64,000 bases of DNA from Methylobacterium sp. J-026 (lineage in GTDB: Bacteria; Pseudomonadota; Alphaproteobacteria; Rhizobiales; Beijerinckiaceae). The DNA lies in NCBI RefSeq assembly GCF_022829585.1, contig NZ_JAKSYC010000065.1, positions 1-64,000 on the forward strand. Direction: 5' to 3'. Within the stretch, counting starts at the first letter, position 1. Each line of letters opens with the position of its first letter. The notes below the pieces were generated by a model. It was not told the origin of the DNA. It made no database searches and saw nothing but the letters and a program-made list of their open reading frames with translations. Of this stretch, positions 35,983 to 43,025 are shown one piece after another. The translations under genes were made by a program, and so were the position numbers.

Positions 35983-36000
35983 GATCCCCCTATACGCCGC

Positions 36001-36606
36001 TCAGCGGCGGACGAGATCCTCGAGGGCGAGGTTCAGCGCCAGGACGTTGACGCGCGGCTCGCCGAGGAGCCCGAGGGTGCGGCCCTCGACGTGGGACGCG
36101 ACGAGTTCGCGCAGCCTGTCCTGCGGCAGGTTCCGGGCCTTGGCGATGCGGGGAATCTGGAAGTCGGCGGCCTGCGGCGAGATCTCCGGATCGAGGCCGG
36201 ACCCGCTGGTGGTGACCAGATCGACCGGCACCGGGGCGGCCGCGTTCTCCGCCTTCAGGGTGTCGCGGTCGCCCTTGACCCGCTCGGCCAGCGCGGCACT
36301 GGTCGGGCCGAGGTTCGAACCCGAGGAGTTCGCCGCGTTGTAGGGCGCCGGCACCGTCTTCGAGGCGTCGGCCGGGTCGGGTGCTGTCGTAGCCGAGGGC
36401 CGCCCGTGGAAATATCCGGCGCCCGCGAAGGTCTGCCCGATCAGGCGGGAGCCGACGATCGTACCGTCGCGCTCGATCAGGCTGCCCGCGGCTTTGGCCG
36501 GGAAGATGACCCCGGCGAGGCCGGTCATGGCGAGGGGGTAGGCGAGCCCGGTGACCACCGTGAGCGCGGTGAGGAGGACCAGGGCGGGGCGGATCTGTTT
36601 GAGCAT
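36001..36606 (-). CDS. kdpC: Potassium-transporting ATPase subunit KdpC
   Basis: This 201-residue chaperone-like subunit of the high-affinity potassium pump has one N-terminal membrane helix (IRPALVLLTALTVVTGLAYPLAMTGLAGVIFP) and a periplasmic domain. SRLIGQTFAGAGYFHGRPSA, NLGPTSAALAERV, PVDLVTTSGSGLDPEISPQAA and the C-terminal VNVLALNLALEDL are the standard KdpC motifs. Lies 22 bp after kdpB. Confidence 0.96.
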   Translation of the reverse strand: MLKQIRPALVLLTALTVVTGLAYPLAMTGLAGVIFPAKAAGSLIERDGTIVGSRLIGQTFAGAGYFHGRPSATTAPDPADASKTVPAPYNAANSSGSNLGPTSAALAERVKGDRDTLKAENAAAPVPVDLVTTSGSGLDPEISPQAADFQIPRIAKARNLPQDRLRELVASHVEGRTLGLLGEPRVNVLALNLALEDLVRR

Positions 36607-36628
36607 GGCGGGTCTCCCAGGGACCGGT

Positions 36629-38719
36629 TCAGGCGAGGCGCAGGGCGGTGACGGCGAGGTCGATGGCCTTGATGCCGATGAAGGGCACGATCACGCCGCC
36701 GAGCCCGTAGATCAGGAGGTTGCGGCGCAGGAGCGCGGCCGCGCCCACGGCCCGGTAGGTCACGCCGCGGAGCGCCAGCGGGATCAGGGCCACGATGATC
36801 AGCGCGTTGAAGATGATCGCCGACAGGATCGCGCTCTGCGGCGAGGCGAGATGCATGACGTTCAGCGCCTGCAGCTGCGGGTAGAGCGTCAGGAACATCG
36901 CCGGGATGATGGCGAAGTACTTGGCCACGTCGTTGGCGATCGAGAAGGTCGTCAGCGCGCCGCGGGTCATCAGCAACTGCTTGCCGATGCCGACGATCTC
37001 GATGAGCTTGGTCGGATCGCTGTCGAGGTCGACCATGTTGCCCGCCTCGCGGGCCGCCACCGTGCCGGTGTTCATGGCGACGCCGACATCGGCCTGGGCC
37101 AGCGCCGGGGCGTCGTTGGTGCCGTCGCCGCACATGGCGACGAGCTTGCCCTCGGCCTGCTCCTTGCGGATCAGCGCCAGCTTGTCCTCGGGTGTGGCCT
37201 GGGCGAGGAAATCGTCGACGCCGGCTTCCGCCGCGATGGCCGCCGCGGTCATCGGGTTGTCGCCGGTGATCATCACCGTGCGGATGCCCATCCGCCGCAG
37301 CTCCGCGAAGCGCTCGCGGATGCCACCCTTCACGATGTCCTTCAGGTAGACGATTCCGAGCAACCGGCCGTCGCGGGCGACGGCCAGGGGCGTGCCGCCG
37401 GCCTTGGCGATCGTCTCCGCGATGGCGCGGATCTCGCCGACCACGCGTGATTCCGGATCGGGCTGGAAGGCGAGGGCGGCGTTCGAGCCCCGGCTCGCCA
37501 TGGGCTGCGCGGCGAGCGAGGCGATCACGGCCTCCACGGCGCCCTTGCGGATCGAGGCCCCGTTGAGATCCACGCCGGACATCCGCGACTGCGCGGTGAA
37601 CGGCACGAAGGTGGCGTTGAGCCCCGCCATGTCGCGGGCGCGGATGCCATAGGTCTCCTTGGCGAGGACCACGATGGAGCGGCCCTCGGGGGTCTCGTCC
37701 GCCAGGGAGGCGAGTTGCGCCGCGTCGGCCAGTTCCTGCTCCGAGACCCCGGAGACCGGGCGGAACTCGGTCGCCTGCCGGTTGCCCAGGGTGATCGTGC
37801 CGGTCTTGTCGAGGAGCAGCGTGTCCACGTCGCCCGCCGCCTCGACGGCCCGGCCCGACATGGCGAGCACGTTGAAGCGCACCAGCCGGTCCATGCCGGC
37901 GATGCCGATGGCCGAGAGCAGGGCACCGATGGTGGTCGGGATCAGGGTGACGAACAAGGCGACCAGCACGATCACCGGAATCGCGCCGCCCGCATAGCTG
38001 GCAAAGCTCGGGATCGAGGCCACCGCGAAGACGAACACGAGGGTCAGCCCGGCGAGCAGGATATTGAGGGCGATCTCGTTCGGGGTCTTCTGCCGGGAGG
38101 CACCCTCGACCAGGGCGATCATCCGATCGACGAAGGTCGAGCCCGCGGCCGCGGTGATGCGGACCTTGATCTGGTCGGAGAGCACCTGCGTGCCCCCGGT
38201 GACAGCCGAGCGGTCGCCGCCGGATTCGCGGATCACCGGGGCCGATTCGCCGGTGATGGCGGCCTCGTTCACCGAGGCGACGCCCTCGATCACCTCGCCG
38301 TCGGAGGGGATCAGATCGCCGGCCTCGACCAGGACGACGTCGCCGACCTTGAGGGTCGTGCCAGGCACCGTCTCGTAGCCCCCGCCCGGCCCCTTGAGGC
38401 GCTTGGCGGTCATCTCGGTGCGGGTGCGCCGCAGGCTGTCGGCCTGGGCCTTGCCGCGGCCCTCGGCGAGCGCCTCGGCAAAGTTGGCGAAGATCAGGGT
38501 AAACCACAGCCAGAGGATGATCTGGCCGGAGAAGGCGAGGTCGTTGCCCCCGGTGACGAGGTCGCGGGCGAACAGCACGGTGGTCAGCGCCGCCACGACC
38601 TCGACCACGAACATGACCGGGTTGCGGATCATGGCGCGGGGATCGAGCTTCCTGACCGAGCCGAGGAGGGCCGGCCCGACCAGGGCGGCGCTGAACAGGG
38701 ATGACGTCTGACGAGACAT
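36629..38719 (-). CDS. kdpB: Potassium-transporting P-type ATPase subunit KdpB
   Basis: This 696-residue catalytic subunit of the pump carries the phosphorylation motif [14 protein letters not shown] (about residue 307), the dephosphorylation loop [15 protein letters not shown], the P-domain [18 protein letters not shown], and KdpB-specific [19 protein letters not shown]. It works with KdpA (channel), KdpC and KdpF. A separate small membrane gene lies between it and kdpA. Confidence 0.97.
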
Positions 38720-38775
38720 GGATGATGTCCGAAGCGGTGAGGGAGCCCGGCGCGGCGCGCCGGGCGCTGTCTTGG

Positions 38776-38967
38776 TCAGGGAACGAGGGTGCCGGTGGTC
38801 AGCGCGATCGCGGCCAGGAGGGCGAAGCCGCCGAGCAGCACGACGCCGAGGAGCGCCAGCACCAGGTCCGAAGTCCGCACCGGCGGTGCGCGCCCGGGCC
38901 GCTGCGGTTGCCGGTGCAGCACGAGGTGGTGGCGCGGCATGCGCCGGGACGGGAGGGCGCGCGGCAT
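38776..38967 (-). CDS. 63-residue membrane protein in the kdp operon, unknown function
   Basis: This 63-residue protein lies between kdpA and kdpB on the same strand. Its ATG comes one base after the kdpA stop (TGAGATG), so it is likely translated by reinitiation, with a G-rich ribosome site inside the kdpA end. A strongly basic, histidine-rich N-terminus ([18 protein letters not shown]) is followed by one helix, [22 protein letters not shown]. It is not KdpF, which is intact upstream. I know of no named Kdp subunit like it. Confidence 0.7.
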
Positions 38968-38968
38968 C

Positions 38969-40684
38969 TCAGCCCCCCGTCGCGAAGGTCTGGCCGGCCG
39001 CGCCCGCGAGGTGCTCGACCACGGGGCCGAGCGCCAGGGACGGGAAGAAGGTCAGGCCGCCGATGATCAGGATCACGCCGACGAGGAGACCGACGAACAG
39101 GCCGCCATGGGTCGGGAACGTGCCCGCCGAGGCCGGGACCGTCTTCTTGGCGGCGAGCGAGCCCGCGATGGCCAGAACCGGGATCTTCACGAAGAACCGA
39201 CCCACCAGCATCCCGATGGCCAAGGTGCTGTTGTAGAACAGCGTGTTGGCAGAGAGACCGCCGAAGGCCGAGCCGTTATTGGCCGCCGCCGACGTGTAGG
39301 CGTAGAGGATCTCCGAGAAGCCGTGCGGGCCGGCATTGGCCGGGCCGGCGAGCCCGGCCGGCAGCACGGTCGCCAGCGCGGTGAAGCCCAGCATCATCAG
39401 GGGCAGGCACAGGATGCCGAGCATGGCCATCTTCACCTCCTTGGCCTCGATCTTCTTGCCGAGGTATTCCGGGGTGCGCCCGACCATGAGCCCGGCCACG
39501 AAGATCGCCACGATCACGAAGATCAGCATGCCGTAGAGGCCGGCGCCGACGCCGCCGATGATGATCTCGCCGAGCTGCATGTTGATAAGCGGGATCAGGC
39601 CGCCCAGCGCCGTGAACGAATCGTGCATGGCGTTGACGGCGCCGCAGGAGGCCGCGGTTGTGATCACCGCGAACAGCGCCGAGGCCGCGATGCCGAAGCG
39701 CGTCTCCTTGCCCTCCATGTTGCCGCCGGTGAGACCCAGGCCGTTGAGGACCGAGCTGCCGTTGGCTTCGGCCCAGTAGGTGACCCATACGCCAGCCAGG
39801 AACAGCACGCCCATGGCGCCCAGGATCGCCCAGCCCTGGCGCTCGTCGCGGACCATCCGGCCGAAGACGTTGGTGAGCGCGGCGCCGATCACGAAGATCG
39901 AGACCATCTGGACGAAGTTCGACAGGGCGGTGGGGTTCTCGAACGGGTGCGCGGCGTTGGCGTTGAAGAACCCGCCGCCGTTGGTGCCGAGCATCTTGAT
40001 CGCCACCTGGCTGGCCACCGGCCCCAGCGCGATGGTCTGGTGCGCACCCTCCAGCGTCGTCGCATCAACGTAGGCGCTGAACGTCTGCGGCATGCCCTGC
40101 CAGACCAGGAACAGCGTGTAGGGCACGCAGATCGGCAGCAGCACGTAGAGGGTCGCCCGGGTGACATCGACCCAGAACGAGCCGATCGTGCCGGTGGAGG
40201 CCCGGGCGAAGCCCCGGATCAGCGCCACCGCCACCGCGATGCCGGTGGCCGCCGACAGGAAGTTCTGGTGCGTCAGCCCGAGCATCTGGGACAGGTACGA
40301 GAGCGTGGTCTCGCCGCCGTAGGACTGCCAGTTGGTGTTGGTGATGAAGCTGGTCGCGGTGTTGAACGCGAGGTCCGGCGCCACCGCGGCCTGATCGGCC
40401 GGGTTGAGCGGCAGGACCGCCTGCAGGCGCAGGATCGCGTAGAGGACGGCAAAGCCCAGCACGTGGAACAGGATGACCGCGCCCGTATAGGCGAGCCAGT
40501 GCTGCTCCTGCCGGGCGTCGATGCCCGACACACGGTAGAGCCCGCGCTCGACGGGGCCGAGCACGGGCGAGAGGAGGGCGCGCTCTCCGGTGAAGACGCG
40601 GGTCATGTACGACCCGAGGGGCTTCACGAGCGCCAGCACGACCGCGCAGTAGAGCGCGATCTGGATCCAGCCGTTGAGGGTCAT
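38969..40684 (-). CDS. kdpA: Potassium-transporting ATPase subunit KdpA
   Basis: This 571-residue channel-like subunit has ten or so membrane helices. [42 protein letters not shown] and [24 protein letters not shown] are its selectivity-filter-type loops. [28 protein letters not shown] is a further filter loop, given here by its start and end. It starts 23 bp after the kdpF stop. Confidence 0.97.
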
Positions 40685-40707
40685 GGGAGGAGGTCCACGA
40701 GGGCCGC

Positions 40708-40797
40708 TCAGAACCGCTCGGGGCGGACGAGGGCGTAGGTGAGGTAGACGAGGAGCCCGGCCGTCACGAGGGCGCCGAGGGCGAGGTCGAAGGTCAT
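40708..40797 (-). CDS. kdpF: Potassium-transporting ATPase small subunit KdpF
   Basis: This 29-codon gene encodes one helix ([21 protein letters not shown]) ending VRPERF, the typical KdpF tail. GAGGGG lies at good spacing before the ATG. KdpF is a lipid-like stabiliser of the KdpABC complex. It lies directly upstream of kdpA, the expected place, 10 bp after a still smaller gene. Confidence 0.9.
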
Positions 40798-40807
40798 GGC
40801 GGGCCCC

Positions 40808-40891
40808 TCAGAGGCGTTCGCAGAGGACGGCGTAGCCCTCGGCGAGGCCGAAGAAGGCGAGCGCCCCGGCGATGAAGACGATGTCGAGCAT
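40808..40891 (-). CDS. 27-residue membrane peptide leading the kdp operon
   Basis: This 27-codon frame begins MLDIVFIAGALAFFGLAEGY and ends in a short charged tail (CERL). It is one hydrophobic helix carrying one glutamate. A GGAGCGG ribosome site lies before the ATG. It is the first gene of the kdp transcript, 10 bp before kdpF, so it is co-translated with the pump. Similar tiny frames at this place exist in other alphaproteobacterial kdp operons as far as I recall, without a defined role. Confidence 0.7.
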   Translation of the reverse strand: MLDIVFIAGALAFFGLAEGYAVLCERL

Positions 40892-41090
40892 GGCGATCCG
40901 CTCCGGTTCGGCGGACCGGCCGCGGAAGCGCCGCGCCCGGCCTTGGCCAGGCGGGATTGTGGCCGGAAACCGCGTTAGGGTTCGAGCGCGAGCGAGGGCC
41001 CTCCGCATAAGGGCCGTGTTAGGATCGGCTGCCTGTGGCGGTCCGCGCGATCCCGGCCCGCATTCCGCTCCTGCAAGGACCTCGACGATT

Positions 41091-41786
41091 ATGCGCCCCG
41101 TCCATACCGAGCGTCATCTCATCGACCGGATCGGCTGGCTGCGCGCCGCCGTCCTCGGGGCCAATGACGGCCTCGTCTCCACCGCAAGCCTGATCGTCGG
41201 GGTCGCCGCCTCCGCCGCCAATCCCAACGAGATCCTGGTCGCGGGATCCGCCGGGCTCGTGGCCGGCGCGATGTCCATGGCCGCCGGCGAGTACGTCTCG
41301 GTAAGTTCGCAGGCCGATACCGAACGGGCCGACCTCGACCGGGAGCGCGGCGAGCTGGCGGCCGATCCGGCGGCGGAGCGGGAGGAACTCGCCCGGATCT
41401 ACATCGATCGGGGCCTCGACCCGACGCTGGCCCGGCAGGTCGCCGATCAGCTCATGGCCAAGGACGCGCTCGGCGCCCATGCCCGTGACGAGCTCGGCAT
41501 CTCGGAAGTCACGACGGCGCGCCCAGTTCAGGCGGCGCTGACCTCGGCGGCGACTTTCTCAGCCGGCGCGGCCCTGCCGCTGCTGGTGGCGGCGCTCGCC
41601 CCCGGAGCGTCAGCGGCCTACAGGGTGTCGGCCGCCTCGCTGGTGTTCCTGGCTGTCCTCGGCGCCCTGGGCGCCAAGGCGGGCGGCGCCCCCCTGGTCC
41701 GGGCCACGGCCCGCGTGACCTTCTGGGGGGCGCTCGCCATGGCGGTCACCGCGGGGATCGGCAGCCTCGTCGGCAAGGCCGTCTGA
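41091..41786 (+). CDS. VIT1/CCC1-family divalent metal transporter
   Basis: This 231-residue membrane protein starts RPVHTERHLIDRIGWLRAAV, then LGANDGLVSTASLIVGVAA and AGSAGLVAGAMSMAAGEYVSVSSQ, the family motifs with conserved acidic, Gly and Met residues. A cytoplasmic helical domain (ERADLDRERGELAADP to AHARDELGI) carries glutamates that bind metal in plant VIT1. Three more helices follow. Plant and yeast relatives move iron or manganese into vacuoles; the bacterial role is likely metal efflux. Divergent from the kdp operon with 199 bp between starts. Confidence 0.92.
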   Translation: MRPVHTERHLIDRIGWLRAAVLGANDGLVSTASLIVGVAASAANPNEILVAGSAGLVAGAMSMAAGEYVSVSSQADTERADLDRERGELAADPAAEREELARIYIDRGLDPTLARQVADQLMAKDALGAHARDELGISEVTTARPVQAALTSAATFSAGAALPLLVAALAPGASAAYRVSAASLVFLAVLGALGAKAGGAPLVRATARVTFWGALAMAVTAGIGSLVGKAV

Positions 41787-41801
41787 CGCGCACAGGCCGC
41801 G

Positions 41802-43025
41802 TCAGCGTGCGGTGCCGGCCCCGGTCGATCCGGTGACATCGCCCTGGCTTGGCTTGATCGCCCAGAGTTCCGTCGGAAGGCTGATCGGTGCGCCGGGCTT
41901 GTAGTCCGCGGAATCTTGGATGTGCGACGTCGTCACGTAGACCGTGCCGTCCGGCCCCTCGCTGAACGTGTCCGGCCACCGCAACTGCGGATCCTGGACC
42001 AGCGTCGTCAGGCCCGCTCCGGTACGGGAGAGATCGCGGACCTTCACGGCGTTGTCCTGCGGCGACGTCACGTACATCCGGCCGTCCTCGCGGGAGATCA
42101 TCAGGCCGTCGGCGGGGCCGTTCTCACCGACGGTGACGATCTTGCCGCTCAGCGTCCGGTCGCTGAGCGACTCGGGCACGAAGGACGCGGTCGCCCAGCC
42201 GGTGAGCGCATCGGTCGGCAGGCTGTAGAGCGTCTTGCCCTTGATCGCCTGCCAGTACAGCGTCTTGCCGTCCGGCGAGAGGGCAATGCCGTCCGCCGCG
42301 AAGTCGACGCCGCGCCCGTCCGGGCGGCGCAGGGGCTTGCCGTCGTACTGCACGGTCACGCTCGTGTCCGGCATCGTCGAGGCGTGGCCCGAGAGCAGGC
42401 GCTTGGCCGATCCACTGTCGAGATCAACCACGATCAGCGCGCCCTCGGCGCCGGAATCGGTGAGGTAGGCGGTCTTCCCGTCCGGCGCGATGCGCACGTC
42501 GTTGATGTAGGACGCCTGCAGCACGGTGCTGCTGTCGAACGGGATGGTTTTCACGACCTGGTTGGTCTTCAGGTCGATCCCGACGAGCTTCGGCCCATCC
42601 TTGATCACGTGGGCCATCGCGGGGGCCGCGGCATCGACCACCCAGAGGCGGTCCTGCTGGTCGGCCACGACGCTCTGCACGCAGACGAAATGAGTCTTCG
42701 GATCGACCGTGTCCGCCTTCGCGTTGCGCCAGCTGTTCCACCCGAGATCCGGGAAGGGCACCGGCTTGCCGTCCTTTAACTCGGCCACGGAAACGGGGGC
42801 GTCCTCGCTCCAGCGGGGAAAGTTGACGAACATGCGCCCGTCGCGGCTCACGGTGATGCCGGTGACCTGATGCTCGAAGCTCGCGATCTTGGTGAGCGGT
42901 GCTTGCCCGGCGGCAGACCCTTGCCCGGGGGTCCGATCCTGGGCGGAAGCGAGCGTCGGCAGACTGGCCACGCCGGACATCAGCGAGAGGGCGAGTCCGA
43001 AACGGATGCCGGCGGAAGACGTCAT
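41802..43025 (-). CDS. Secreted royal-jelly/SMP-30-like beta-propeller protein
   Basis: This 407-residue protein has a Sec signal (MTSSAGIRFGLALSLMSGVASLPTLASAQ) and a beta-propeller built from repeats such as KIASFEHQVTGITVSRDGRMFVNFPRWS, SVVADQQDRLWVVDAAA, YINDVRIAPDGKTAYLTDSG and DGIALSPDGKTLYWQAIKG. WPDTFSEGPDGTVYVTTSHI near the end is typical of the major royal jelly protein/yellow group; bacterial members are often annotated as dopachrome tautomerase-related. Enzyme activity is unproven. Periplasmic or secreted. Converges on the VIT gene. Confidence 0.85.
   Translation of the reverse strand: MTSSAGIRFGLALSLMSGVASLPTLASAQDRTPGQGSAAGQAPLTKIASFEHQVTGITVSRDGRMFVNFPRWSEDAPVSVAELKDGKPVPFPDLGWNSWRNAKADTVDPKTHFVCVQSVVADQQDRLWVVDAAAPAMAHVIKDGPKLVGIDLKTNQVVKTIPFDSSTVLQASYINDVRIAPDGKTAYLTDSGAEGALIVVDLDSGSAKRLLSGHASTMPDTSVTVQYDGKPLRRPDGRGVDFAADGIALSPDGKTLYWQAIKGKTLYSLPTDALTGWATASFVPESLSDRTLSGKIVTVGENGPADGLMISREDGRMYVTSPQDNAVKVRDLSRTGAGLTTLVQDPQLRWPDTFSEGPDGTVYVTTSHIQDSADYKPGAPISLPTELWAIKPSQGDVTGSTGAGTAR

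Follow-up and report, generated by a model that had tools for sequence, protein, structure and literature searches.

KdpFABC is a textbook high-affinity potassium pump that combines a channel-like half with a P-type ATPase half. Within it KdpF spans the membrane once, with its C-terminus inside, and work by Gassel in 1999 reportedly found that the Escherichia coli protein belongs to the complex and has a stabilising effect on it in vitro. A PDB search returned three distinct KdpA sequences of 557 aa, which we take, like the solved KdpFABC structures, to be those of E. coli. Extra genes are known inside kdp operons, kdpG of Anabaena among them, and a 1997 paper on Clostridium is said to describe kdpZ and kdpY as both encoding hydrophobic peptides. 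The transcript kdpZYABCXDE of C. acetobutylicum is cited in the accessible part of PMC5401905, which also places a 120-bp 5′UTR ahead of kdpF in Mycobacterium smegmatis, and the accessible part of PMC8552747 describes in Caulobacter an unannotated kdpF behind a structured 5′UTR of about 100 nt.

The operon described here holds two small frames besides kdpF, denoted ORF1 and ORF63. In C. acetobutylicum too, two small frames, kdpZ and kdpY, stand ahead of kdpA in the place taken here by ORF1 and kdpF, and from this likeness of position, with the hydrophobic nature of their products, ORF1 may correspond to kdpZ; Anabaena kdpG, compared by description only, is likewise an extra kdp gene but has another position. 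The 5′UTRs of Caulobacter and M. smegmatis are long enough to hold a predicted ORF1, and an alternative reading of these 100-120 nt ahead of kdpF is that they contain a candidate ORF1.

The kdp operon of Methylobacterium sp. J-026

The window, the whole 64,000-nt stretch of Methylobacterium sp. J-026 DNA that was analysed, carries on its minus strand the order ORF1 (27 aa), kdpF, kdpA, ORF63 (63 aa), kdpB and probable kdpC, and the nearest named relatives of its KdpA are those of Methylobacterium sp. J-070 (97%) and M. longum (96%). The features are:

40808..40891, minus strand: ORF1, a predicted 27-aa single-span membrane peptide 5′ of kdpF (from its translation, a conserved family and a pN/pS of 0.34)
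40708..40797, minus strand: kdpF, 29 aa (PF09604, E 2.1e-11; NF011342, E 1.1e-19)
38969..40684, minus strand: kdpA, 571 aa (PF03814, E 2e-248; TIGR00680)
38776..38967, minus strand: ORF63, 63 aa, with an Arg/His-rich N-terminus and one predicted membrane helix, starting 1 nt past the kdpA stop
36629..38719, minus strand: kdpB, 696 aa (TIGR01497, E 0)
36001..36606, minus strand: probable kdpC, 201 aa (from the list of open reading frames, named from its position only)

Both small frames had been pointed out in a first-pass annotation of the window, as a 27-residue frame ahead of kdpF and a 63-residue frame between kdpA and kdpB with its ATG one base past the kdpA stop, each encoding one hydrophobic stretch. 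Their coordinates and lengths are exactly as it gave them, each peptide has the single hydrophobic stretch, and AlphaFold2 predicts one helix in ORF63. The ORF1 peptide, MLDIVFIAGALAFFGLAEGYAVLCERL, is 27 aa long and its frame is separated from kdpF by 10 nt. Neither ORF1 nor ORF63 of the window matches a Pfam or NCBIfam model at E up to 10, and a search of positions 36000-42000 against Rfam gave 0 matches at the gathering threshold. Frames at both positions that show purifying selection, as that annotation anticipated for real genes, recur in related genomes, for ORF63 within Methylobacterium; that they are conserved, under purifying selection, found together with kdpA and placed next to kdpF or kdpA supports the reading, made from sequence, that both are genuine small genes tied to the pump.

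Conservation of ORF1 and its linkage to kdpA

The comparison drew on 364 kdpA loci with 345 distinct kdpA sequences. They comprise a genus set of 96 loci (kdpA is present in 94 of the 99 genus genomes), a named set of 64 loci of other genera, mostly Bradyrhizobium, a plasmid set of 12 named loci, and loci from genome samples taken at the levels of family, order, class and phylum, in which kdpA occurs in 64/119, 51/150, 29/153 and 91/249 genomes, respectively; the loci of these last four sets are a subset of the listed places, with 140 regions taken. A further 8 regions and 15 named records served for comparison beyond the 345. A pattern search located kdpF in 317 of the 345 loci.

A profile of 27 positions built from 61 ORF1 peptides (A1), applied with a cut-off of 14 bits to 343 of the 345 loci (the two with less than 150 nt upstream were left out), found ORF1 upstream of kdpA in 309, a count that excludes false picks in four phylum loci (L330, L332, L353 and L365). 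By set, it was found in 95/95 genus, 64/64 named, 12/12 plasmid, 43/44 order, 51/56 family, 28/34 class and 16/38 phylum loci, while at the same cut-off reverse-strand frames gave 0/343 matches and shuffled frames 0. Because 60 of the 61 rows of A1 come from the tested loci themselves, the result was repeated with independent rows, each time with 0 decoys matched. Built from 94 Methylobacterium peptides and no others, a profile recovered ORF1, at 12 bits, in 157 of the 248 loci outside the genus (named 64/64, order 34/44, family 35/56, class 17/34, plasmid 6/12, phylum 1/38); rows from the genus, family, order and named sets recovered it in 25/34 class loci, and 49 alphaproteobacterial rows in 12/38 phylum loci, which are from other Pseudomonadota.

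The consensus of the peptide is MxDxxxLxxGxxFFAxxxxYxxxCxRL. Of 305 picked peptides, chosen by a start-picking rule that itself favours 27 aa, 249 are 27 aa long with D or E at position 3; within these 249, D3 is found in 247, F14 in 229, Y20 in 235, C24 in 218, R26 in 229 and L27 in 217, and the conserved residues include those at the boundaries (D3, Y20, C24, R26, L27). Pooled over 74 nearest Methylobacterium pairs, pN/pS is 0.34 for ORF1 versus 1.29 and 1.70 in the other frames, and 0.30 for kdpF over 73 pairs; these values, like those for ORF63 below, are uncorrected proportions from overlapping nearest pairs and not a likelihood test. Changes in ORF1 at the three codon positions number 131, 98 and 255.

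The reach of ORF1 beyond the Proteobacteria rests on Deinococcus, since Methylobacterium rows match the single phylum locus mentioned above and the one frame from Listeria drops far below threshold. With alphaproteobacterial rows only, the frames of Deinococcus radiodurans and D. ficus score 21.7 and 16.8 bits. The frame of a Listeria innocua plasmid was rejected: it scores 28.2 bits with its own row in the profile, and 2.0 and 1.5 bits without it. A Parabacteroides frame, alike by eye, was also set aside, at 4.9 bits once the Listeria and Deinococcus rows are removed, and on a Streptomyces plasmid a frame overlapping kdpF stays below threshold at 9.0-11.7 bits. The profile found no match in the kdp operon of E. 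coli K-12, nor in records of Deinococcus sp. D7000, Halobacterium, L. monocytogenes, Lactiplantibacillus, Enterococcus, Staphylococcus, Acinetobacter and Tsukamurella. In many misses of the phylum sample KdpF is of the E. coli type, with an AEAF end, or has the LDGVSL start known from Pseudomonas; in five others (L161, L153, L349, L354 and L355) a similar frame lies below threshold. The 12 plasmid records, for which the gene table is given as incomplete, carry no annotation of ORF1. The frame is present in a Sinorhizobium meliloti pSymA record, and on a plasmid of Phenylobacterium, of the same family as Caulobacter, it lies directly 5′ of kdpF.

The tie of ORF1 to Kdp is very strong. In the genus it was found in 93 of the 94 genomes with kdpA, the single miss (G059) having kdpA at a contig end, and in 0 of the 5 without. 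In the phylum sample 53 of the 54 genomes with ORF1, out of 249, also have kdpA (Fisher p 4e-28), the contig of the remaining one ending after ORF1-kdpF, and in the class sample all 23 genomes with ORF1, out of 153, have kdpA (23/23). The matches are close to the gene as well, 54 of the 56 in the phylum sample lying 129-386 nt ahead of the kdpA match. Off-kdp matches in the genus comprise ten at E 0.004-0.1 plus one at 9e-5 near a contig start (G064:C213), and the phylum sample gave one at E 0.003 (G127:C9); no kdpA was found in the regions around these last two (L378 and L383). The reverse association is looser, as 38 of the 91 phylum and 6 of the 29 class genomes with kdpA have no ORF1 match, and from these misses, along with E. 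coli K-12 and several Gram-positive records, it follows that a Kdp pump can work without ORF1.

ORF1 keeps beside kdpA when gene order changes: the order is kdpF-ORF1-kdpA in L361 and L377, and in both Deinococcus records kdpB stands in front of ORF1-kdpF-kdpA. If a small kdp-operon membrane gene is defined by co-occurrence with kdpA and a fixed neighbourhood, both features are found for ORF1, and for ORF63 the neighbourhood is fixed within the genus only. As a separate observation, the kdpA of L377 is a second, divergent copy in its Methylobacterium genome (G083), with 52% identity and one in-frame TGA.

Both peptides had also been credited with good ribosome sites. For ORF1 of the window this stands, with a GGAG at -13 to -10, but it does not extend to the genus, where 6 of 95 ORF1 copies have a core Shine-Dalgarno 4-mer and 89 lack one, compared with a background of 184 among 1845 ATGs inside kdpA (about 10%). 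ORF63 has a core site in 33/90. Since kdpB has such a site in 0/95, its lack is not evidence against translation here. Methylobacterium ORF1 may start on a leaderless or weakly led message, going by positions 40892-40967 of the window and the upstream sequences of the genus loci. Elsewhere ORF1 has a Shine-Dalgarno site in 60/64 named, 42/44 order, 20/21 class, 41/49 family, 13/20 phylum and 8/12 plasmid loci.

ORF63 between kdpA and kdpB

ORF63 is complete in 91 of the 96 Methylobacterium loci. In one more (L274), outside this count, no stop interrupts its frame over the 71 codons that precede the contig end, and in four it is lost or broken: it is gone from L027 and L226, where gaps of 41 and 51 nt are left, a start-like N-terminus alone remains, by eye, in L277, and the membrane part is disrupted in L285. 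The start lies 1-4 nt past the kdpA stop in 89 of 90 loci, and exactly 1 nt past it in 63, with ATG as start codon in 83 and GTG in 7. Lengths range over 58-83 aa without loss of frame, so its many indels are in-frame. Over 54 pairs pN/pS is 0.46, versus 1.17 and 1.65 in the other frames, on which ground a chance open frame in G+C-rich DNA was rejected, and the value is similar in the tail (0.48) and the membrane part (0.40). In 28 aligned genus sequences R19, R31 and L45 are invariant and R9, S33, D34, L37, G41 and A52 nearly so. The AlphaFold2 model has residues 1-31 unstructured (block pLDDT 57-64) and a helix over residues 32-61, with block pLDDT of 91 and 97 over residues 31-50 and 83 over 51-60. 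One of the loci with a complete ORF63 (L271, genome G084) has, upstream of it, a kdpA with an in-frame TAG at codon 88; either the pump gene is broken there, or the TAG comes from a sequencing error or is recoded.

Frames of similar plan were seen by eye in the kdpA-kdpB gap of other loci in which kdpB was located, namely 8/53 family, 10/44 order, 3/64 named and 1/11 plasmid loci, and in 0/33 class and 0/37 phylum loci; Rhizobium lusitanum has one as well. The best of these gap frames outside the genus matches a Methylobacterium ORF63 profile at E 1.3e-4 among 886 targets, and unrelated ORF1 peptides reach 1.2e-4, so that relatives outside the genus are not statistically secure, hydrophobic decoys scoring equally. 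In Rhizobium, Xanthobacter and other Hyphomicrobiales the frames in this gap share with ORF63 its position and its plan (a basic tail, R-x-S-[DEST] and one helix), a suggestive likeness for which we do not claim homology. ORF63 is a real but lineage-bound gene, secure only within Methylobacterium, and dispensable.

Possible roles at the pump and rival readings

ORF1 and KdpF are alike as single-span peptides of 27-30 aa, encoded early in the operon and with a similar predicted topology. ORF1 differs in that it lacks the RPE-x-F end and stands beside a separate, real kdpF. That it is a second KdpF was rejected: the KdpF models (PF09604, TIGR02115 and NF011342) match 0 of the 61 ORF1 members, and hhalign gives no usable alignment of the two profiles (probability 3% over 1 column, with short profiles limiting its power). 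Some members match unrelated hydrophobic families weakly, the best being PF16020 (4 members, E 0.0011), and PsbT models at E 0.025.

The first-pass annotation proposed that the two peptides are extra subunits or assembly factors. Conservation, selection, co-occurrence and synteny bear out the part of this that concerns two real, pump-linked genes, and it is from these that we infer a subunit or assembly role, as well as translation, topology and membership of the complex. The explanation that we favour, with moderate confidence, is that both are membrane-protein genes of the kdp operon, ORF1 encoding a further pump subunit or an assembly or stability factor and ORF63 a lineage-specific accessory protein or regulator. 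A partnership with the pump seems somewhat probable for ORF1, and less so for ORF63. The persistence of ORF1 beside kdpF or kdpA through rearrangements, its absence where kdpA is absent and the selection on its peptide together argue that it is a partner of KdpA or KdpF. ORF1 would be made together with KdpF and KdpA and would span the membrane once, N-terminus outside and C-terminus inside, as predicted by the positive-inside rule from its conserved N-terminal acid and C-x-R-L end; it would most likely pack against KdpA or KdpF as a small subunit or as an assembly or stability factor, such that an ORF1-KdpFABC complex would be built in the bacteria that bear it and KdpFABC in E. coli. ORF63 would be translated by coupling from kdpA, its basic tail probably cytoplasmic, and would most likely bind the KdpA-KdpB part of the complex or the surrounding lipid, an accessory of these two subunits being the simplest interpretation. 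Phospholamban, sarcolipin and the FXYD proteins are small single-span regulators of P-type ATPases, and ORF63 resembles them, by analogy only, in joining a basic tail to one helix beside such an ATPase.

The main rival for ORF1 is a regulatory role as an upstream frame or leader peptide, whose translation would control the expression of kdpF and kdpA and whose product would have no job at the pump. Its usual place as the first frame ahead of kdpF, ending about 10 nt before it, would suit such a role, as would the structured Caulobacter 5′UTR of ~100 nt before kdpF, after which gene reads drop and Rho-dependent termination has been proposed (PMC8552747, accessible part). We nevertheless consider a leader unlikely, as conservation of the ORF1 amino acids extends through the final residue, changes being mainly at third codon positions, and in L361 and L377 it sits after kdpF; the lack of any Rfam match in the region also speaks against a leader, and led us to reject the idea that a known RNA element explains the conservation. 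A leader could also have become a subunit, and both readings may be true. About equally doubtful is that the peptides act on regulators or membrane insertion (for example KdpD, YidC or the lipid environment) and not as pump subunits. Sensor kinases can have membrane peptides as interaction partners, and the cording and intramacrophage growth of BCG change when KdpF is overexpressed (PMC3618439, accessible part), yet the conserved neighbourhood is that of kdpF-kdpA and persists when kdpB moves. Less probable still is that ORF63, as a young gene or as a neutral frame held open by high G+C, is tolerated between kdpA and kdpB and has no function: its being secure in one genus only and its loss or breakage in four loci would fit, but the ratio in its coding frame is far below those in the other two and under 0.5 in both halves, and almost every genus locus retains both the position of its start and its reading frame despite indels.

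Between the two, ORF1 is the more interesting: a micropeptide that is widespread, is covered by no family model and goes with a textbook pump, and for which a Clostridium small-gene precedent exists. The majority of the sampled alphaproteobacterial kdp operons carry it alongside kdpF and kdpA, as do operons of other groups, and the E. coli operon is without it. A tentative and rather speculative extension is that ORF1 was, in ancient Kdp, a fifth subunit of 27 residues that Proteobacteria and Deinococcus have retained, that the E. coli pump is a reduced form which lost it, and that some lineages (Methylobacterium and Bradyrhizobium) added further membrane peptides. Were this so, the known Kdp mechanism and structures would describe a derived complex, and a pump component would have been overlooked because genes of 27 codons are rarely annotated. 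The literature searched, a search that most subscription papers lay beyond, held no description of ORF1 or ORF63 and no ribosome-profiling, proteomic or mutant data on them, and the main text, as distinct from the supplements beyond our reach, of a Ribo-seq paper on the S. meliloti small proteome (PMC10117765) does not mention kdp.

Other small frames also occur in kdp operons. The kdpF-kdpA gap is at least 75 nt in 39 of the 64 named loci, and nearly all of these (L049, L054, L058 and other Bradyrhizobium) have there a third small hydrophobic frame of about 31-34 aa, of at least two sequence types; the kdpA-kdpB gap of these operons is short, with no ORF63. Three phylum loci (L195, L327 and L328) have a frame of ~84 aa between kdpF and kdpA that overlaps the stop codon of kdpF; these frames start with hydrophobic residues and resemble one another at the end (PPF-x-R-x-x-x-P). 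On an Acidiphilium cryptum plasmid (L121) the space between kdpF and kdpA holds, at 839-979, an annotated hypothetical protein of 46 aa that has a single hydrophobic stretch.
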